Below are positions 6,816-38,206 of a stretch of DNA of 64,000 bases, in pieces (position 1 is the first letter of the stretch; every line of letters starts with the position of its first letter). A program made the position numbers and the translations under genes. The notes beneath the pieces are model-generated. The model did not search any database, was not told where the DNA came from, and saw only the letters and a program-made list of their open reading frames with translations. This DNA comes from Paracoccaceae bacterium (lineage in GTDB: Bacteria > Pseudomonadota > Alphaproteobacteria > Rhodobacterales > Rhodobacteraceae): NCBI GenBank assembly GCA_958296035.1, contig OY282431.1, positions 1,863,001 to 1,927,000 of the forward strand, read 5' to 3'.

Positions 6816-9197
6816 CTAATGTTGTTCGGCTGTCTTCGCCACCGACCTCAAGAGGCGAATACGCACCATCGCTCCAGCGTGATTGTCATCGGTGAATACA
6901 GGGGCATCATGCAGTGTCATCTCACCATTGTGCCCCTCAATTATTCGTTCAGCGTAGGCCAATCCCAAACCGGTCCCTCCCTCGCGGAAAGTAACAAATG
7001 GTCTGATGATATGCGACCTGTCCCGATTAGCCGGGAATCCCGTACCGTTATCCATGATGCAAATCTGCAACCAGCGACCTGTTGTTTCAGCTTCTACCCG
7101 AATTCGAGGTCTGAACACACGGCTCTCTTGCATCTTGGCCATTCGGGTCGCAATTGCTTCACTGGCGTTCTTCAGCAAGTTGGTGAGTGCCTGATTCAAG
7201 AGGTCCTTGTCGATTCTGACTTCTATACGCGTCAATTCGCACGAAAACTCCATTGCGATTTTCGGAACACGGCCGGCTTCGCTGGCCAGCACATTTCGCA
7301 GTACAGGCAAAATGTCCTGGCGCTGGAGTCTTGGCTCGGGTAGCTTGGCAAAGCGGGAAAACTCGTCTGAAATGCGTATCAGGCCTGATACGCTGTCATC
7401 AATGCGGCCAGTGTATCGATCGACCATGGTCTGAGTCCGTGAATCCAGCCGCCCACCAACCAGGTGACCGAGCTGCCCGGTGGCGAGCAGGATAGGAGTC
7501 ATGGCATTCTTGATTTCATGGGCAATCTGTTGTGCGACATTGGTCCAGGCTGCCTTGTTCTCGGCTCGGACAAGATCCGTGACATCGTCGAAGGCAATCA
7601 CGAAGCCTTCACGACCGCCTTCATTTGTGCGACGCGTCGCGACGCGGACCAGGAACTCGCTGACGCCGCCGGCTGCTGATGTCCTTAGCTGATGTTGGGA
7701 GGTCTCATGCCCCCAACTGACATGCTGGTCAAGAATATTGGCAAACTCGGGCACGAGTTGGCGGATTCCGGTTCCAGAAAACTCGCCGTCGAATCCATCA
7801 CTGTGACCGATTCTTGAATGATGCAGCAGACGACCTGCTGACCTGTTTATGAATACTACCGTTTCGTCATCGTCCAGGCCGATCACGCCCGCTGTAACAT
7901 TGGCCAGGACTCCCCGAAACTGGCGTTCCCGATGCTCTGCCGCATTACGGGTCTTTTCCAGTTCATTGATACTGGTGTTCAGCTGATCAATCATCAACTT
8001 GAACGCTCGGCCAAGCCTGGCAATCTCATTGGTGCCAGCGGTGTTGATGCTGACCTCGCGATTGCCTTCACCGAATTGTCTGGCGGCCCTTGCCAGTTCC
8101 TGGACTGGTCTGCTCAGACGCTGCGCATAAAAGGATCCCAGTTGCGTCATGAGCAGCACCAGCGCCAGCGCCAGACTCATGTAGAGTATCGAGTACTGAA
8201 ACACCTGGTAGGTAATCTTCTGAACCAGATCACGGGACGAAGCCGTCTTGCGAGCCAGCGACCGCCGCAGTTCCAGAATCGAAGAATTCACTTCCAGTGT
8301 GGACACCAGGTAGTAGTCAAAGGTTACGTCGAGGCGTATCACGGCTATCAACTCAGTCCCTGACTCGTCCTCGAAAATGCTCCCGATATGAGTCGTGCCG
8401 TCCAGGACAGGGGTAAGCGGAGAGGGTTCACCGGTCGAGGTTATGTCGAGATCACTCCCGCAATGGCCGTTCTGATCATTGTCGCCAACATTTATCGCCA
8501 GCTGGCGCATGACATTTCGAGGTGGCGGCAGGTAGTTGAACATGTAACTCGCCACGCCGCGTACGATGAGTGTGCAATTTCCGTCAATTATGAAAACGTG
8601 CCCGATGCTCCCTGACATTTGCGACTGAAGAACGTGAAGTGGTTGACGGTAGCGCCTGAGATCGAGGTTAGGGTAGCGCAGGATTTCCTGCTCCACTAGC
8701 CCTGCAAGTCCCGTAGCATAGGTGCGCAGTTCTTCGACCTTCCCGCTGGCGTAGGATTCCGAAGCCGTACTTGCTCTGTCAAGCTCTTCCTTGACCTCGA
8801 CTGCCAGGCTGTCACCGATGCCGACGTTGAGCACCAGTGATGCGACAACTGCAATGACAAGCGTGGGAACAAAGGCCAGAAGCGCAAATACGCGGGTGAG
8901 CGTTACCCGCAAGGGGGTTCTGATTTCGGGGTCCCGATGCCGGCCCATTCCGGCCAGGGCGAATAGCAATCGAGCCGCGACGATGGTGAAAAACACGAAA
9001 TCGAACAGTATGAATACGATCAGCCGATCGGTATACTCCCCCCGCGCAAAATCGACGATGGCAAGGACCGTGGCCACCGTTGCCAGCGGAATGCAACACA
9101 GGAGTGCAAACGAAACCCAGTAATCGACGTGTCGATAGACTTTCTTCAGAAACAGGCGGCGCAGGCGGCGTGCAAGGTTGTCCAGATTGGATTTCAT
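6816..9197 (-). CDS. ntrY: Sensor histidine kinase NtrY
   Basis: This is a membrane sensor kinase of about 793 residues. The order is: several N-terminal membrane helices (the first beginning around WVSFALLCCIPLA), a long periplasmic sensor region, a further helix (SLALALVLLMTQLG), HAMP, PAS (around GVIGLDDDETVVFINRS), and a HisKA/HATPase unit. Visible kinase motifs are AHEIKNAMTPI with the phospho-His, NLLKNASEAI (N box), DNGTGFP (G1) and GGTGLGLAY (G2). It phosphorylates NtrX. I chose the ATG at 9197 (MKSNLDNLARR) because the upstream in-frame stretch from 9338 looks unlike a leader and the basic N-terminus precedes the first helix. No dusB-ntrB-ntrC genes lie upstream; ispDF starts divergently at 9690. 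Confidence 0.92.
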   Translation of the reverse strand: MKSNLDNLARRLRRLFLKKVYRHVDYWVSFALLCCIPLATVATVLAIVDFARGEYTDRLIVFILFDFVFFTIVAARLLFALAGMGRHRDPEIRTPLRVTLTRVFALLAFVPTLVIAVVASLVLNVGIGDSLAVEVKEELDRASTASESYASGKVEELRTYATGLAGLVEQEILRYPNLDLRRYRQPLHVLQSQMSGSIGHVFIIDGNCTLIVRGVASYMFNYLPPPRNVMRQLAINVGDNDQNGHCGSDLDITSTGEPSPLTPVLDGTTHIGSIFEDESGTELIAVIRLDVTFDYYLVSTLEVNSSILELRRSLARKTASSRDLVQKITYQVFQYSILYMSLALALVLLMTQLGSFYAQRLSRPVQELARAARQFGEGNREVSINTAGTNEIARLGRAFKLMIDQLNTSINELEKTRNAAEHRERQFRGVLANVTAGVIGLDDDETVVFINRSAGRLLHHSRIGHSDGFDGEFSGTGIRQLVPEFANILDQHVSWGHETSQHQLRTSAAGGVSEFLVRVATRRTNEGGREGFVIAFDDVTDLVRAENKAAWTNVAQQIAHEIKNAMTPILLATGQLGHLVGGRLDSRTQTMVDRYTGRIDDSVSGLIRISDEFSRFAKLPEPRLQRQDILPVLRNVLASEAGRVPKIAMEFSCELTRIEVRIDKDLLNQALTNLLKNASEAIATRMAKMQESRVFRPRIRVEAETTGRWLQICIMDNGTGFPANRDRSHIIRPFVTFREGGTGLGLAYAERIIEGHNGEMTLHDAPVFTDDNHAGAMVRIRLLRSVAKTAEQH

Positions 9198-9689
9198 GGA
9201 CGGCTGGCCTGACGATATGCGGAAGTGGGAAAATCTCTCTTCAACCCGAAATCCATTCAGTGCTGCTTCTAGCCTTCGGCGGTGAACGTACTGTGCAACC
9301 TCACGGACGACTTGCGGTACCACAATTGCCGGGCACACCGGACCCTTGCGGCCCGCCTGTTGTTCCGGCTGGCAAGGCTCCCAGGAAAGATCACCTGGCC
9401 CTGTGACCGCCTTCCCGGGTTCCGGTCACCGCATTGCTCCCGGATCAGCCCTTTTTACTATACATCAACTCGTCAGGATCCCAAACAACAACCGCAATGG
9501 ATGGCGTATGCAGGCGGCGTGGCCTGCACCTGAGCGTGTTGCGGGCCCACGCAGGCTGCCCGGGCGCGAACTCCGCAATGCAATCTTGATCCCTGTTGCG
9601 CGGCGCTGGCGTGGATTAACAGGACATTTCCGTGTATTTCCTGCCGGATCATCGTCAATTCCGGCCGAGGATCAGCGAAGGAGGACGGT
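9198..9689. other. Divergent intergenic region between ntrY and ispDF
   Basis: About 490 bases contain no convincing gene. It must hold the promoters of the ntrY operon (minus) and of ispDF (plus). In many alphaproteobacteria dusB, ntrB and ntrC occupy this junction; I see no remnant of them here. Confidence 0.6.
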
Positions 9690-10901
9690 TTGCAGGCATC
9701 TAAACCTCAGCAGGTGCAGAAACGTCCAGGAAGATACAGCGACCGGAGGATAGCCGCAGTTGTCCTGGCAGCCGGTTCCGGCAGCCGGGTTGGAGGATCT
9801 CTTCCCAAGCAGTTTCGGGCGGTAGGCGGTCGGCCAATGGTTGCTCATGCCTTGCAGGCGTTTGGGCGCCATCCGGCCATCTCGCGGTGTGTCCTTGTAC
9901 TTGGCAAACAGCACTTTCCGCTCTTCGACCGACTGGTAGGGCCTTCCCTGGGCACGGATGTGGAAACCGTCACGGGCGGTTCGAATCGGTCTGCATCGGT
10001 CGCCAATGCTCTCGAGCATCTGGCTCAGGACAGCATTACGCATGTCCTTGTGCACGATGGCGCCAGGCCCCTTGTCTCGTCGCGGCTGATCTCGTCTGTT
10101 GTGGACAGGTTGGCAGTTGAAAATGCCGTCATCCCTGCCCTGCCAGTTGCAGATGCATTGTGGCGACTGCAAAATGGCAGCCTACGCAAGGCGGTAAGAC
10201 GTGATGGATTGGTAAGGGCCCAAACACCACAGGGATTTGCCTTTCGACAATTGCTGGAAGCGTTTCGAACCAGAAATGGAGGCGCCGATGACTGTGCAGC
10301 GATTGCAGCCGGGCACGGCATGGCGGTGACGATCGTGGCCGGCGAGACACGCAACTTCAAGATTACGCACCAGGCAGATTTACGCCGGGCCAACGACACA
10401 CTCGCGCAGCGATTTGAAACACGCATCGGACACGGGGTGGATGCGCATCGGTGCTGCCCTGGCACCGGGGTTGTGCTTTGTGGCGTGAAGATTTCAGGTC
10501 AATTCTCGTTGCAGGGTCATTCAGATGCCGATGTCGGGTTGCACGCTCTCTGTGATGCCCTCTATGGTGCCATGGGTGACGGAGACATCGGCGCATGGTT
10601 TCCGCCAACCGACTCAGAATGGCAAGGTGCCGACTCAACGATATTTCTGCACCATGCGGCATCGCGAGTTGCAGACAGGGGTTTCGCGGTCGTCAACATC
10701 GACATTACACTCATATGTGAGGAGCCGAAAATTCGCCCGCATGCTTCCGCAATGCGCTCAGTTATTGCTAAAGTCCTCAATACCTCTGTGGCAAGAATTA
10801 ACGTCAAGGCGACTACAACCGAGGGTATGGGCTTCGCCGGTCGCAGGGAAGGTATCGCCGCACACGCGACTGCGGTGGTCAGAGGGCCGTGTCAAAACTG
10901 A
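9690..10901 (+). CDS. ispDF: Bifunctional IspD/IspF (MEP pathway)
   Basis: This 403-residue fusion has 2-C-methyl-D-erythritol 4-phosphate cytidylyltransferase at the N-terminus and 2-C-methyl-D-erythritol 2,4-cyclodiphosphate synthase at the C-terminus. IspD: AAVVLAAGSGSRVGG with the CTP-binding Gly/Arg, then VLVHDGARPLV. IspF starts near residue 245: IGHGVDAHRC with the metal-binding Asp and His, GHSDADVGLHALCDAL, and the closing KATTTEGMGFAGR. It carries out the third and fifth steps of isoprenoid synthesis; the intervening ispE is elsewhere. The start is TTG at 9690, supported by a strong GAAGGAGG at 9677-9684 with five bases of spacing. It overlaps pgpA by 13 bases. The fusion is common in alphaproteobacteria. 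Confidence 0.95.
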   Translation: MQASKPQQVQKRPGRYSDRRIAAVVLAAGSGSRVGGSLPKQFRAVGGRPMVAHALQAFGRHPAISRCVLVLGKQHFPLFDRLVGPSLGTDVETVTGGSNRSASVANALEHLAQDSITHVLVHDGARPLVSSRLISSVVDRLAVENAVIPALPVADALWRLQNGSLRKAVRRDGLVRAQTPQGFAFRQLLEAFRTRNGGADDCAAIAAGHGMAVTIVAGETRNFKITHQADLRRANDTLAQRFETRIGHGVDAHRCCPGTGVVLCGVKISGQFSLQGHSDADVGLHALCDALYGAMGDGDIGAWFPPTDSEWQGADSTIFLHHAASRVADRGFAVVNIDITLICEEPKIRPHASAMRSVIAKVLNTSVARINVKATTTEGMGFAGRREGIAAHATAVVRGPCQN

Positions 10902-14081: not shown

Positions 14082-15632
14082 TCAAGCGAAGGCGTCAGGC
14101 ATCGAATTCTTGCGCTGCGCAATGTAGGCCTGCAGAGCCTCGTCAATTGCTGGGTCGATTGCAGGTTGCTGGTATTGCTCAAGCAAATTCCTGACTTGTT
14201 CGGCAGCCAAGGCCTGACTGTCTCTTTCTCCCTCTTCCAACCACGTTTCAAAGGGCTTGTAGTCGAATACTTCGCTGCGCCAGAAAGCGGTCTTGTAGTT
14301 CGCCTGGGTATGTGCGCATCCGAGGTAGTGGCCACCTGGCTGAACCTCGCGGATGGCATCCATAGCCAGACCGTTAGAGGAGATATCGATCCCCTGGGAA
14401 AACTTGTGCAGGCCACCGAGCTGGTCGGCATCAAGCACGAACTTCTCGAACGAGGAAACAAGCCCGCCCTCAAGCCAGCCACAGGCGTGCAGCATGAAGT
14501 TGACGCCGCCCAACAGCGCCGATTGCAATGTTGCTGCCGATTCGTAGGCCGCCTGGGCGTCAGGAAGTTTCGAGCTGCACAAACCACCACCGGACCGATA
14601 TGGAAGATTCATTCGACGAGCGAGTTGGCCCGCCCCGAAGAGAATCTGGCTTGCTTCGGGTGTACCAAAGGTCGGCGCGCCTGAGTTCATGTCGATCGAA
14701 GTTACGAAGGTACCGAAAATTGCCGGTGAACCGGGCCGAACCAGCTGGCTGTAGCCGACGCCCGCAAGGACCTCGGCCAGCACCTGTGACAAAGTTCCGG
14801 CCATTGTGACTGGCGCCATGGCACCACCGACGATGAACGGCGAGATGATACTGGCCTGGTTGGCACTCGCGTATTCTTCCAATGCACCCATCATCATGGA
14901 ATCAAAGGTAAGCGGAGAATTGATGTTGATCAGTGACGTGATAACAGTGTTGCCTTCAACAAACCCTTTGCCAAACAGGAGCTGAGCCATGTTAAGAGTG
15001 TCACGGGCCCGCTCTCGGGCGGTTACAGAACCCATAAACGGCTTGTCTGACAACGTCATGTGTGCGTACACCATGTCGAGATGCCGCTTATTGACGGGGA
15101 TGTCCGTGGGCTCACACAAAGTCCCACCCGAATGGTGCAGCCATTTGGACATATAGGCCAGGCGCACAAAATTTCGAAAATCCTCAATCGTGGCATACCG
15201 GCGACCGCCGTTGGCATCTCTCACAAATGGAGGACCGTAAACGGGGGCCAGGACGAGAGAATTCCCCCCGATCCTGACGCTCTTTGCCGGGTCCCGGGCT
15301 GCCTGGATATATTCAGCCGGTGCCTTGGCACAAAGAGAGCGTGCTAGCCCCTTCGGCATTCGAACCCTTTCGCCGTCAATATCTGCCCCGGCATCACGCC
15401 ACAATTCGAGTGCTTTGGGGTTATCAATGAAGTCCACCCCGATTTCCTCAAGAATGCATTCAGCCTGGTGCTCGATTGTTTCGAGCGCCTCGTCATTGAG
15501 CAAGTCAAAATTGGGAATGCGCCGCTCAATGAATTTCGCCGTTTCAATGCGTACCGCCGTTCTCCTGGCGCGTCGGGCGGCTCCGCCGCCACCTCTTCTG
15601 CGGCGGCGTGCCGTTCGTCTGGACGCTGTCAT
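14082..15632 (-). CDS. MttB-family corrinoid-dependent methyltransferase (non-pyrrolysine type)
   Basis: This 516-residue protein belongs to the trimethylamine methyltransferase superfamily (COG5598). The body follows the family pattern: [15 protein letters not shown] near the start, then the TIM-barrel strands, [20 protein letters not shown] and the closing [18 protein letters not shown]. There is no in-frame amber codon, so it is the non-pyrrolysine branch, whose known members demethylate glycine betaine, proline betaine, carnitine and similar quaternary amines and pass the methyl to a corrinoid protein. The substrate here is unknown. The N-terminus is a striking Arg/Gly tail ([13 protein letters not shown] then AARRARR). 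No corrinoid protein is adjacent; one is at 36374-37078. It is convergent with IS982 copy A and divergent from guaA. Confidence 0.85.
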
Positions 15633-35083: not shown

Positions 35084-35398
35084 TCATTTTGCGTTGAGGA
35101 CTGCGGCCAGCTGTTGTTCGCAAAGTGTTGTATATTTGCTTCGCACCTCGGCCTCGCTGACAACGCCGTCCAGGTCACTAATCACTTTTTGGAGAACATC
35201 CTCGGGACCAGGTTCCTCAAGGTCAGCCTTAACAGTATCCAGGGCGTAGACCTGCGCCATGTCAGCTGACAATTTCAGCTTCTCGGATGCCCATAACCCG
35301 AGTTCCTTGTCAGCGCGTGCATAGGCCTTGAACTGCAGTTCCTCGCCGAATGCAAACCGCGCTTCAGCCGCCCTTCGGCGCTCTTCAAAAAAATCCAC
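35084..35398 (-). CDS. DUF1476 protein (ATPase inhibitor zeta-like)
   Basis: A 104-residue protein. The segment FFEERRRAAEARFAFGEELQFK, then KELGLWASEKLKL and DGVVSEAEVRSKY, matches DUF1476, the family that includes the zeta-type inhibitor of the F1-ATPase in alphaproteobacteria. I chose GTG 35398, preceded by GGAAGGAAG about nine bases upstream, giving the usual length; an ATG at 35509 would add 37 residues without family support. It is the last gene of the minus-strand cluster that starts at 38206, with 198 bases after DUF1638. Confidence 0.85.
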   Translation of the reverse strand: MDFFEERRRAAEARFAFGEELQFKAYARADKELGLWASEKLKLSADMAQVYALDTVKADLEEPGPEDVLQKVISDLDGVVSEAEVRSKYTTLCEQQLAAVLNAK

Positions 35399-35596
35399 CT
35401 GGCTAGTCTTCCTTCCACAATTCCGTCCCACGAATATAATTATCCGGCACTCTCGATCAAGAACCACGCACAGGGGCTGCGCCATTGCCCTGCTCTGCTG
35501 GAAACTCACAATCGACTACTTGTCGGTTCTCCTGACTGCCATCCTGTCTGAACATTGAAGACGGCCACTTCCGTACATCGCGCTTGTCGGCAGGTC

Positions 35597-36247
35597 TCAC
35601 GGTTCGAGTCGGGAGAGAACTCTTTCCAAATCACCGTAGCCTGTCACGCGGCGCTCGTATTCCAGCCCCAGGAATTGAGCGCAGCGGCGGGCCTCTTGCT
35701 CAAGCTCTGCATCATCCTTTTGGGCCAAGTAAACCACTTTCTCGTAGTTGCCGAAATAGGTGTCTCGCAGTTCGGGAAATCGATCGAGACCCAGAGGCTT
35801 GATTACAAACGCCTCAAACTGCCGGACCAAAAAGTCGGTGAGGTAGAAGGACGTCAACTCACTCTCCTGGTGACTGTCGAATGATTCCAACCCCTCGTAA
35901 AATGCATAGCAATGCGGTCCAGCAATCATTTCAACTCCCAGTTTCCTGCACCTGTCCTGCAGCAATCCTCCCGTTCCGCAATCGGCGTAGACTACAAAGA
36001 TCTTGTCATAGTGTTGACGAAACTTGAGAACCGATGCCTCAACTGCATCGGGAATCTGATTCGGGAACAGGTGCAATTTTGCTGGTAGGCAGTGCAGGTC
36101 GAGATGCACCCAATTGTTGATCCGCTTGAGTTCGATGATTTCCCTTGCGAGTGCGCCACAGGCCAGCAGGAGTATTCTCTCGCAGGGTGAGCCCTTTAGC
36201 CGTTCTGTTGCGGGGGAAAGCTGTAGCGGACTATGTACTTCTGCCAT
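35597..36247 (-). CDS. DUF1638 protein linked to corrinoid methyl transfer
   Basis: A protein of about 216 residues. It has the DUF1638 features: RILLLACGALAREI at the N-terminus, VVYADCGTGGLLQDRCRK in the middle (CGTGG with nearby Cys), then GPHCYAFYEGLESF and a C-terminal region with FGNYEKVVYLAQ. Cys and His residues in these blocks could bind a metal, but this is not shown. Members of the family occur beside corrinoid proteins and methyltransferases; here it follows the corrinoid protein gene by 126 bases. Catalytic role unknown. ATG 36247 (MAEVHSPLQ) was chosen; an earlier in-frame start at 36328 adds 27 residues of low complexity. Confidence 0.82.
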   Translation of the reverse strand: MAEVHSPLQLSPATERLKGSPCERILLLACGALAREIIELKRINNWVHLDLHCLPAKLHLFPNQIPDAVEASVLKFRQHYDKIFVVYADCGTGGLLQDRCRKLGVEMIAGPHCYAFYEGLESFDSHQESELTSFYLTDFLVRQFEAFVIKPLGLDRFPELRDTYFGNYEKVVYLAQKDDAELEQEARRCAQFLGLEYERRVTGYGDLERVLSRLEP

Positions 36248-36373
36248 TGCGAAAGTCTCGGTTCTCGAGTGCTCGGCTACGACCATTTCTTGGTCCCTGG
36301 AACCTGCTCCGTCGCTGCGTCTGGCCAACCACGGCCGGCAAGTCGGTTGTCGGTGACCAGTCTGTTCTTCGGA

Positions 36374-37078
36374 TCAACCGGCAGCAACGAGTTGGTTGTG
36401 CTTTCTTGCCATGTATTCCTTGGCAGTCTCGACGGCGATGGCCGCATCGCGGCAGTACGAATCTGCACCAATTGCACGGGCGAATTCTTCGTTAAGGGGA
36501 GCACCGCCTACCAACACTACAAGATTGTCGCGAATGCCGAGTTCCTTCAACCGATCAATGACAACCTTCATGTATGGCATTGTCGTGGTCAGCAAGGCCG
36601 ACATGCCGAGAATATCCGGATCTTCGGTCTCGATTGCTTCAAGGTAGTTTTCTACCGGGTTGTTGATTCCGAGATCAACAACCTCAAATCCGGCACCCTC
36701 CATCATCATAGACACGAGGTTCTTGCCTATATCGTGGATATCTCCCTTGACGGTTCCAATGACCATCTTGCCCATGCGTGGGGCACCCGTTTCGATCAGG
36801 AGCGGCTTGAGGATAGTCATTCCCGCCTTCATCGCATTGGCCGACATCAGGACTTCGGGCACGAATAGAATGCCGTCCCGAAAATCAATCCCGACGATTC
36901 GCATTCCCTCGACAAGCGCCTCGGTCAAGACCCTGTAAGGCAACCAACCACGTTCCAGAAGAATATTTACGCCTTCGACAACCTCTTCATTCAGACCATC
37001 GTAAAGGTCATCGTGCATCTGCGGAACCAATTCCTCATTCGGTAGTTCCGAGAGGATAAGGTCGTCGTAATCATCCAT
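36374..37078 (-). CDS. Cobalamin-binding methyltransferase corrinoid protein
   Basis: A 234-residue stand-alone B12 protein of the MtbC/MttC type. The N-terminal helical cap (about residues 15-95) precedes the Rossmann-like domain with GTVKGDIHDIGKNLV, the D-x-H-x-x-G motif whose His115 coordinates cobalt; D113 and G118 are also present. GMSALLTTTMPYMK and LVGGAPLNEEFA complete the B12 fold, the same as in the cobalamin module of MetH. It accepts a methyl group from a donor enzyme and passes it on; the neighbour downstream in pathway terms is probably the homocysteine methyltransferase at 37187. ATG 37078 (MDDYDDLI) was chosen. It lies 108 bases after the BHMT gene. Confidence 0.92.
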   Translation of the reverse strand: MDDYDDLILSELPNEELVPQMHDDLYDGLNEEVVEGVNILLERGWLPYRVLTEALVEGMRIVGIDFRDGILFVPEVLMSANAMKAGMTILKPLLIETGAPRMGKMVIGTVKGDIHDIGKNLVSMMMEGAGFEVVDLGINNPVENYLEAIETEDPDILGMSALLTTTMPYMKVVIDRLKELGIRDNLVVLVGGAPLNEEFARAIGADSYCRDAAIAVETAKEYMARKHNQLVAAG

Positions 37079-37186
37079 CAAAACGCTCCCAAGATGCGAA
37101 AGCCCAATCCTGCGCCCGTAATTGCAAACCGCTGACAATACAACAACATTGTGGATCAGGTGCTAAGTTCAGTTCTATGTCATTCC

Positions 37187-38206
37187 CTAATTGTGCCTTG
37201 CAGGCCGCCGACCCGCTGATCTACGGCGTCGGCTCCGACGTCTGTTTGTCCGGGGCGCGTTGTCGTAGGTCAAGGGGCCCAGCTTGGCAATGACTTCTTC
37301 GAGCCGGGGCTTTGCACCCATGGGTGCCGTCTCCAGCCGTTCTCTCATCTTTTCGACGTGCCGAGGTGTCGTTCCACAGCATCCACCAATGATGGTGGCT
37401 CCGACATTGCGTGCCAGTTCAACATAATCGGCCATGACCTCCGGGGAGCCTGCATAATGAATTCGACCTTCAACAAAGGAAGGAATTCCGGCGTTTCCCT
37501 TAGCTATCACGGGTCTCGAAGGACGAGCGTCGCAAATCTGAATCAGCGCTTGCATGAGATCAGATATCCCGGAGCCACAATTGGCGCCCATTGCAAGAGG
37601 TGCAGGCACAACAGACTCGGCAATATCAACCAATTGTGGTGGACTGATCCCCATCATTGTCCGACCAGCCGTGTCAAAGCTCATTGTTCCGCACCATGGC
37701 AGGCCGGCAAGCCGACACCCCTCGGCCGCAGCAAGAAACTCCTCCTGCGAAGACATCGTCTCGATCCACAGCAGATCCACGCCGCCCTCAGCAAGCCCGG
37801 TCGCCTGTTCATGAAACAACTCCACCGCATCGGAATGCGATAGTGATCCGGCAGGTCCCATAATTTCCCCGGATGGTCCCATTGAACCCGCGACGATACA
37901 CAATTCGGGGCTGGAATCTGCAACTTCCCGGGCCAGCAATGCAGCGACTTTCGAAAGCTCGCGGCTTCGGTCAGCCGCATTGTGCAATTGGAGGCGGGCC
38001 CGATTGCTGCCAAACGAATTGGTCAAGAACAGCTGGGCTCCGGCAGCAACAGCGTTGCGGTACAGTTTTGAAACCTTGGCTGGGTCCATTACATTAAGCA
38101 TTTCCGGGGCCTCACCAGCCTCAAGACCCATGTTGAACAGGTTTGTCGCCGTGGCACCATCGGCTAACAGCCAGCCCTGACGGTCAAGAATACAGTTCAA
38201 ATTCAT
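37187..38206 (-). CDS. BHMT-type homocysteine S-methyltransferase with Arg-rich tail
   Basis: A 339-residue zinc enzyme that transfers a methyl to homocysteine to make methionine. The Zn ligands are visible as NCGSG and GGCCGTTP, and the barrel begins with LADGATATNLF and NSFGSNR. The fold is that of the Hcy-binding module of MetH as well as of betaine-homocysteine methyltransferase. The C-terminus ends in an unusual basic tail (RRRSRRRR then AGRRPARHN), matching in character the N-terminal tail of the MttB protein at 14082. It leads the cluster with the corrinoid protein, DUF1638 and DUF1476. An IS982 left end lies 27 bases before the start codon, so the native promoter has been separated from the gene. 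Confidence 0.9.
   Translation of the reverse strand: MNLNCILDRQGWLLADGATATNLFNMGLEAGEAPEMLNVMDPAKVSKLYRNAVAAGAQLFLTNSFGSNRARLQLHNAADRSRELSKVAALLAREVADSSPELCIVAGSMGPSGEIMGPAGSLSHSDAVELFHEQATGLAEGGVDLLWIETMSSQEEFLAAAEGCRLAGLPWCGTMSFDTAGRTMMGISPPQLVDIAESVVPAPLAMGANCGSGISDLMQALIQICDARPSRPVIAKGNAGIPSFVEGRIHYAGSPEVMADYVELARNVGATIIGGCCGTTPRHVEKMRERLETAPMGAKPRLEEVIAKLGPLTYDNAPRTNRRRSRRRRSAGRRPARHN

Follow-up and report, generated by a model that had tools for sequence, protein, structure and literature searches.

What reaction do three consecutive genes serve that encode a homocysteine-activating protein, a stand-alone corrinoid protein, and a DUF1638 protein, and what does DUF1638 contribute to it? 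The genes lie in a 64,000-nucleotide stretch (the window) of a Paracoccaceae bacterium, positions 1,863,001 to 1,927,000 of contig OY282431.1 (G000:C1:1863001-1927000 in the coordinates used here). The source genome (G000) is alphaproteobacterial, 3.64 Mb in length, contained in a single contig, and rated 95% complete. Gene names (MtgB, MtgC, MtgD, and MtgE) follow Mausz et al. The locus likely belongs to the alphaproteobacterial split methionine synthase, which depends on cobalamin and is organized around one shared corrinoid carrier. The system itself is known, and the finding as first noted in a preliminary description of the window is largely published. Two additions are made here: DUF1638 is reassigned to the carrier and its activase, and arginine-rich tails are described on the partners of the carrier. 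The tails look new.

37187..38206, minus strand: mtgE (bmt), stand-alone homocysteine-activating module, 339 amino acids (PF02574, 191.9 bits)
36374..37138, minus strand: mtgC, stand-alone corrinoid (cobalamin) carrier (PF02310 and PF02607)
35597..36328, minus strand: DUF1638 protein (PF07796, 104.3 bits), with a likelier start at the ATG at 36247

The preliminary description had placed three open reading frames (ORFs) here, and all three are present on the minus strand at these coordinates, with Pfam scores above the cut-offs. They are transcribed in the order mtgE, mtgC, and DUF1638. For the ORFs as called, the intergenic gaps are 48 bp (mtgE to mtgC) and 45 bp (mtgC to DUF1638).

MtgC is a separate protein of 254 amino acids. 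It matches B12-binding with 91.4 bits and B12-binding_2 with 57.8 bits, both above the cut-off, and contains the cobalamin motifs DIHDIG, SAL, and GGAP. Its start is likely residue 22 (codon 37073-37075). MtgE is likewise a separate protein and matches PF02574 only. The whole-genome family search returned one match each for PF02574, PF00809, and RACo_C_ter, five for MTTB, and two for PF02310; PF01717 matched in three stretches of two proteins. One PF02310 match is MtgC and the other lies in a 726-amino-acid frame that is taken to be a mutase. By these searches the genome has a single MtgC-type carrier.

The preliminary description had noted that the pterin-binding module was missing. This holds for the cluster but not for the genome, where the single PF00809 match (G000:C1:1780747-1781436) falls within the MtgD ORF (G000:C1:1780585-1781574), a stand-alone pterin-binding methyltransferase that scores 398 bits against PRK07535, above the cut-off. 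The absence of a pterin module from the genome is therefore rejected. MtgD is in one cluster with an MTHFR-like protein, a PF13769 protein, and RamA, approximately 116 kb from DUF1638. The MTHFR-like protein is a weak match (TIGR00676, 36.5 bits, below the cut-off) with no Pfam match. RamA is adjacent to MtgD and is the only RACo_C_ter gene of the genome (282.5 bits). Like the RACo, AcsV, and RamA activases, it has the RACo middle, linker, and C-terminal domains, and it scores 272 bits against 3zyy. Thus the activator of RamA/RACo type and the stand-alone pterin protein, both of which the preliminary description had proposed to look for, are encoded side by side. As a side observation, no dihydropteroate synthase gene (folP) was found by the PF00809 search, whose sole match in this genome (rated 95% complete) is MtgD.

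The whole-genome search returned no match to PF02965, the activation domain of MetH, and no full-length MetE. MetH or a full-length MetE as the source of methionine is rejected on these grounds. The split-synthase reading is favored because all modules are encoded, there is one MtgC-type carrier, and both the MetH activation domain and a full-length MetE are lacking. The homocysteine, pterin, and cobalamin modules carry the same Pfam domains as canonical MetH, but here they are separate polypeptides, with RamA-type reactivation in place of PF02965. In such a synthase the methyl group would be carried by MtgC on cobalamin, and the carrier would be reactivated by the RamA-type protein instead of a PF02965 domain. 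By analogy with relatives, in which the auxotrophies and the glycine-betaine role were shown, the parts would operate in this manner in the present organism.

The reading of the locus as a split MetH is borne out and was already published for Phaeobacter, where a three-part synthase was found by mutant fitness together with RamA-like and DUF1638 proteins (Price et al. 2018, PMC5764234). Phaeobacter inhibens resembles the present genome in its separate homocysteine, pterin, and corrinoid proteins, the lack of PF02965, the RamA-like DUF4445 protein, and a DUF1638 gene that closes the operon immediately after the corrinoid gene (PMC5764234). It differs in that its locus includes a radical-SAM gene (PGA1_c13360), whereas none lies between mtgE and mtgC here, and in that the locus tags of MtgD and RamA (c16040 and c15200) are far apart, whereas the two genes are adjacent here. 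In Ruegeria pomeroyi, mutants of mtgC or mtgD are methionine auxotrophs, and both genes are also needed to grow on glycine betaine (Mausz et al. 2025, PMC12478193). The Ruegeria MtgBCDE system shares with this genome one MtgC-type carrier, MtgD beside an MTHFR gene, RamA, DUF1638, and several MttB-family genes (five here).

Separate polypeptides raise the question of how the partners meet the carrier. The following features bear on it.

37190..37243, minus strand: arginine-rich C-terminal tail of MtgE (RRRSRRRRSAGRRPARHN), from the sequence and its homologues
14082..15632, minus strand: MttB/MtgB-family methyltransferase, 516 amino acids, candidate glycine-betaine methyl donor to MtgC (PF06253, 762.7 bits)
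15549..15620, minus strand: arginine-rich N-terminal tail of the MttB/MtgB-family protein, from the sequence and its homologues
37022..37075, minus strand: acidic stretch at the N-terminus of MtgC (MDDYDDLILSELPNEELV), where the arginine tails are proposed to dock

In this genome arginine runs are found at the C-terminal ends of MtgE, MtgD, and RamA. The MttB-family protein of the window has its run at the N-terminus, as do at least three of the four remaining members of this family; for the fifth member the start is uncertain. Alignments to Protein Data Bank (PDB) entries place the tails beyond the catalytic domains: MtgE is aligned to residue 300 of 339, MtgD to 307 of 329, and RamA to 646 of 681. 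The RamA tail, approximately 35 residues past the aligned part (647-681), is an extra relative to the RACo, AcsV, and RamA activases. For the MttB-type protein the alignment to 9yce starts at residue 39, opposite residue 3 of that entry, which leaves the tail outside.

The tails were counted with two measures: at least five arginines in the last 20 residues (C-terminal), and at least six arginines in 20 residues within the first 80 (N-terminal). In the neighborhoods of DUF1638 genes, the C-terminal measure is passed by 9 of 9 MtgE, 34 of 41 MtgD, and 43 of 46 RamA proteins. It is passed by none of the MtgC (0/70), MTHFR (0/39), MetV (0/14), PF13769 (0/41), and zeta (0/4) proteins, by no MttB C-terminus (0/34), and by one of 75 DUF1638 proteins; the other ORFs, which include spurious antisense ORFs, pass in 43 of 629 cases. 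Independent loci (L014-L074) give the same pattern, with 34 of 35 MtgE, 8 of 9 MtgD, and 3 of 4 RamA proteins, compared with MtgC 0/55, MTHFR 0/7, and DUF1638 2/60. Within loci, the tagged proteins exceed the untagged ones in C-terminal arginine in 53 of 54 cases. The N-terminal measure is passed by 31 of 34 MttB-type proteins. The tagged partners thus belong to different protein families and are tagged at different ends.

Paralogues in other corrinoid operons served as a control. Among these, tails are present in 0 of 12 RACo and 1 of 12 MtgD proteins, while the MtgC-system counterparts have them in 7 of 8 (RamA) and 4 of 4 (MtgD) cases, including one in a stretch of 36% G+C. The 20 control stretches were picked by hand: the MtgC-system RamA proteins came from genomes with RamA outside the fetched loci, and the RACo proteins from 11 of 14 lower-scoring places (205-232 bits) plus the second RACo copy of one genome (G384). 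Three genomes (G164, G244, and G384) hold both tailed MtgC-system proteins and tail-less paralogues. The tails contain 634 arginines and 30 lysines. Their presence in the 36% G+C stretch means that they do not follow from base composition alone, and G+C noise was rejected as their origin. A 549-kb sample of the genome holds 399 ORFs, 18 of which pass the C-terminal measure; these include MtgE, MtgD, and RamA, for whose regions the sample (with one 1-kb overlap inside) is enriched. Arginine-rich tails also occur in MtgE, MtgD, RamA, and MttB of Sinorhizobium meliloti, where the MtgD run is looser, and in MtgD and RamA of the betaproteobacterium Azoarcus. Nothing relevant on such tails in these families was found among the open-access papers searched, and the main text of the Ruegeria paper uses none of the terms arginine, tail, docking, terminus, linker, and charged (PMC12478193). 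That the tails are real and specific to this system is nearly certain.

Their function is less clear. The tails of MtgE, MtgD, RamA, and the MttB enzymes would dock on the acidic N-terminus of MtgC and so take over the part that covalent linkers play in MetH. MtgC is proposed as the docking partner because it alone has to come together with every tagged protein and because it has this acidic segment. In homologues, the segment has at least five acidic residues per 14 in 42 of 43 sequences, and at least two basic residues in none of the 43. The idea also draws on a partial precedent. In the methanol (MtaBC) and trimethylamine (MttBC) systems, a stand-alone corrinoid protein docks on TIM-barrel methyltransferases, and the N-terminal extension of MtaC stabilizes the MtaB-MtaC complex (PMC9842639). 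MtaC differs in having a folded N-terminal domain there (PMC9842639), compared with a short acidic segment and proposed arginine tails on the partners here.

Several observations weigh against docking tags. The acidity count covers only the 43 of 72 MtgC homologues in which a motif located the segment; the motif missed the other 29. The N-terminal measure is also passed by 99 of 629 other ORFs, 15 of 75 DUF1638, 10 of 39 MTHFR, and 5 of 14 MetV proteins, and it is weaker than the C-terminal one because protein starts are uncertain. One of the eight MtgC-system RamA proteins of the control (G069) has no tail. DUF1638 has no C-terminal arginine tail, and is therefore an exception if the tag marks partners of MtgC.

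Short poly-arginine stretches bind many polyanions. The tails may accordingly serve another end, such as binding nucleic acid, polyphosphate, or a membrane, or forming a condensate, and the choice of the acidic MtgC segment as partner is a guess. This alternative has somewhat less than an even chance. It does not readily account for the restriction of the tails to one corrinoid system, when paralogues in other operons, some in the very same genomes, are tail-less, or for the position of MtgC as the sole protein that all tagged proteins must meet. Docking of the arginine tails on the acidic segment of MtgC, as judged from the sequences, is accordingly put forward as tentative, not quite an even prospect. 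The wider proposal is an electrostatic tag code, by which methyl donors, acceptor, folate methyltransferase, and activase would dock on one carrier, with DUF1638 as an untagged maintenance protein dedicated to the carrier and with a fold unmatched in the PDB. Taken as a whole, this is rather doubtful.

The role of DUF1638 was approached through its distribution. A survey of 387 genomes of the class found DUF1638 in 78, RACo_C_ter in 93, MTTB in 85, and PF02965 in 227. DUF1638 and RamA (at least 265 bits) occur together in 76 genomes, DUF1638 alone in 2, RamA alone in 3, and neither in 306 (phi 0.96). The 265-bit threshold that separates RamA from other RACo proteins was set after the score list had been inspected; with any RACo match, 77 of the 78 DUF1638 genomes are positive, along with 16 RACo genomes without DUF1638. 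For MTTB the numbers are 77 with both, 1 with DUF1638 only, 8 with MTTB only, and 301 with neither (phi 0.93). No association is seen with PF02965 (both 39, DUF1638 only 39, PF02965 only 188, neither 121; phi -0.09). DUF1638 varies within 12 families, and in nine of these it agrees fully with RamA; the negatives in this test are limited to genomes with a printed family code. Co-occurrence of RamA and DUF1638 was shown earlier across 158 genomes by Price et al. (PMC5764234). The MTTB and PF02965 comparisons and the new genome sample are added here.

Three exceptions were traced: one genome lost RamA at a contig end (G260), one also lacks MtgC (G147), and one has DUF1638 with another RACo type (G107). 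A further genome (G372), counted as negative, has MtgC at a contig end. Two genomes (G093 and G384) keep MtgC, the MTHFR-like gene, MtgD, and RamA without DUF1638. They count against an indispensable role for DUF1638 and make it less likely that DUF1638 is the transfer factor that the preliminary description had considered. Their DUF1638-free operons (L222 in G093 and L191 in G384) are useful for finding a replacement.

Near 79 DUF1638 genes of other genomes, MtgC was found 71 times, RamA 46, MtgD 45, MttB-type proteins 34, and MtgE 9 times. In 69 of the 79 cases the gene immediately upstream, on the same strand, encodes MtgC. In the 60 loci with full flanks, MtgC is near in 54 and MtgE in 8. 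A role for DUF1638 in homocysteine chemistry was rejected on these MtgE counts. On an Azoarcus plasmid the run is MtgC, DUF1638, PF13769, MetV, MTHFR, MtgD, and RamA, adjoined by glycine-betaine transport genes. In two loci, L173 and L175 (the latter in G107, which has no MTTB match), DUF1638 is instead found with a corrinoid protein and URO-D-type proteins, which have no arginine tails. These are corrinoid and URO-D-type methyltransferase operons. DUF1638 accompanies corrinoid carriers and the activase that serves them, whichever methyl donor or acceptor is present.

The zeta gene next to the cluster (35084-35509), the 'DUF1476' of older naming and now the Pfam ATPase inhibitor subunit zeta, is probably a bystander since it is near DUF1638 in just 4 of the 79 neighborhoods. 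Another small protein, PF13769 ('Virulence factor'), is near 48 of the 79 DUF1638 genes (neighborhoods L112-L190) and is also in the MtgD/RamA cluster of this genome (L105:10447-10797, minus strand). YWRDIP and other residues are invariant in it. Its predicted structure (pLDDT 82.8) has no PDB fold match at E ≤ 0.001. It looks like an unrecognized part of the methyl-folate/corrinoid operon.

The DUF1638 protein scores 104.3 bits against a Pfam gathering cut-off of 27. Its likelier start is M28, and a methionine is present there in 130 of 142 aligned sequences. C57, H86, D116, C117, H139, and C140 are each conserved in at least 141 of the 142 sequences, and C80 in 135. In a second alignment (A1), the same six residues are invariant (103/103) and C80 is present in 98 of 103; A1 holds 103 of 123 references, the other 20 having been left out by hand with no fixed rule (among them 1 truncated and 2 over-long). 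In the AlphaFold2 model (mean pLDDT 92.7), the conserved cysteines are predicted at or near the C-terminal ends of strands, as for a cofactor or metal site. Sequence searches of the PDB, made with DUF1638 and with its profile, returned no relative (lowest E values 0.0027, for an engineered protein, and 0.42). Foldseek returned 1464 matches at E ≤ 10, one of them at E ≤ 0.001, and no convincing fold match; query TM does not exceed 0.33 among the 50 matches listed. Weak Pfam relatives gave no lead. An ATP-dependent activase with an ASKHA or 2Fe-2S ferredoxin domain was rejected: the protein of the window matches only PF07796, and no activase domain is among the families listed for 103 members.

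The preliminary description had called the role of DUF1638 undescribed, which holds for its mechanism but not for its phenotype. In Phaeobacter, DUF1638 mutants are rescued by methionine, and no specific role was proposed for the protein (PMC5764234). DUF1638 is also among the Ruegeria proteins raised on N-osmolytes (PMC12478193). The open-access papers found to name DUF1638 or PF07796 give no mechanism. That DUF1638 is an accessory of the carrier and helps RamA to keep its cobalamin active has about an even chance. An alternative is a cofactor chaperone: DUF1638 would load, protect, or repair the carrier's corrinoid and have no part in its reduction. This reading would suit the way DUF1638 tracks the carrier gene, its occurrence with a different corrinoid protein in the URO-D operons, and the invariant cysteine, histidine, and aspartate residues near the predicted strand ends, which would fit metal or cofactor binding. 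Price et al. spoke against B12 synthesis as its role: the genes of that pathway are essential, whereas DUF1638 is non-essential (PMC5764234). Loading is untouched by that argument. The chaperone is judged unlikely, if not far-fetched.

The split-synthase reading itself has to be weighed against what is known of MtgE. The protein has NCG at residue 209 and GGCC at residue 274, which we take to be the zinc-ligand motifs. The preliminary description called it BHMT-type. As a database name this is correct, since MtgE scores 476 bits against NCBIfam PRK07534 (betaine--homocysteine S-methyltransferase), above the cut-off. By phmmer comparison with the PDB, however, MetH homocysteine domains score best (121.7 bits) and BHMT lower (54.2 bits), so the nearest characterized relatives are not the single-enzyme BHMT of SAR11 or human type.

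Three observations speak against the split-synthase reading. First, purified Bmt (MtgE) of Phaeobacter inhibens makes methionine from betaine or dimethylsulfoniopropionate (DMSP) in vitro without folate or cobalamin (Narvaez-Barragan et al. 2025, PMC12366255), and the MtgE module can therefore also act alone. Second, the genome encodes two proteins with the MetE catalytic domain only, as listed below. Third, Phaeobacter has a similar Mes-like protein, and its bmt mutant, although auxotrophic, shows slight residual growth (PMC12366255).

L106:3841-4977, minus strand: MetE-catalytic-domain (Mes-like) protein without the folate-binding half, with an HxC motif
L107:3299-4420, plus strand: a second such protein, also with an HxC motif

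These two PF01717 proteins are 378 and 373 amino acids long, and one is above the cut-off of PRK06520, which NCBI names methionine synthase. The preliminary description had held that a complete MetH or MetE elsewhere would undo its reading; neither was found, but these two proteins with the MetE catalytic domain are present.

An alternative based on the first observation is that MtgE is mainly a stand-alone betaine- or DMSP-homocysteine methyltransferase that uses no corrinoid carrier. The in vitro activity and the family name speak for it. Against it, the sequence is nearer to MetH domains than to BHMT, mtgC and mtgD mutants of Ruegeria are methionine-auxotrophic (PMC12478193), and MtgE-type (S. 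meliloti-type) proteins are stated by Mausz et al. to lack the betaine-binding residues of human BHMT (PMC12478193). As the main function of MtgE, this is improbable. The two published views of MtgE conflict, and the MetH-like sequence leans toward the corrinoid-linked one without deciding between them.

Methyl donors other than methyl-folate are also encoded. The genome has five PF06253 genes for one MtgC. The MttB-family protein of the window matches 4yyc (692.7 bits), 2qne (403.8 bits), and 9yce, a glycine betaine methyltransferase (402.5 bits), and is by sequence a candidate glycine-betaine methyl donor for MtgC, feeding the carrier by demethylation. Another MttB-family gene of this genome (L111:5922-7445, minus strand) lies beside an FAD oxidoreductase/GcvT-domain protein (7533-10043, plus strand) of dimethylglycine/sarcosine dehydrogenase type, which fits stepwise demethylation. 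The preliminary description offered the amine route as an alternative to split MetH. It stands as a second function of the same carrier, as published for Ruegeria (PMC12478193), but not as a rival. The folate-free transfer of methyl groups from an amine to homocysteine through MtgB, MtgC, and MtgE is quite unlikely as the main or normal methionine route, even though all modules for it are encoded around a common carrier with five MttB-family genes, since on succinate the Ruegeria mtgD mutant is auxotrophic for methionine (PMC12478193), which makes methyl-folate the donor in the absence of an amine supply. It may be a shortcut when glycine betaine is supplied.

The split synthase around MtgC ties together the turnover of B12, methionine, and glycine betaine in abundant bacteria, as published. 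For DUF1638, unexplained since 2018, the data point to the corrinoid protein and RamA rather than to homocysteine chemistry, and candidate residues are now named. No explanation was found in the literature on the system for how separate enzymes find one low-abundance carrier. If the arginine tails are docking tags, one B12 carrier could serve many methyl donors, and genomes could be searched with the tag for additional partners of the carrier.

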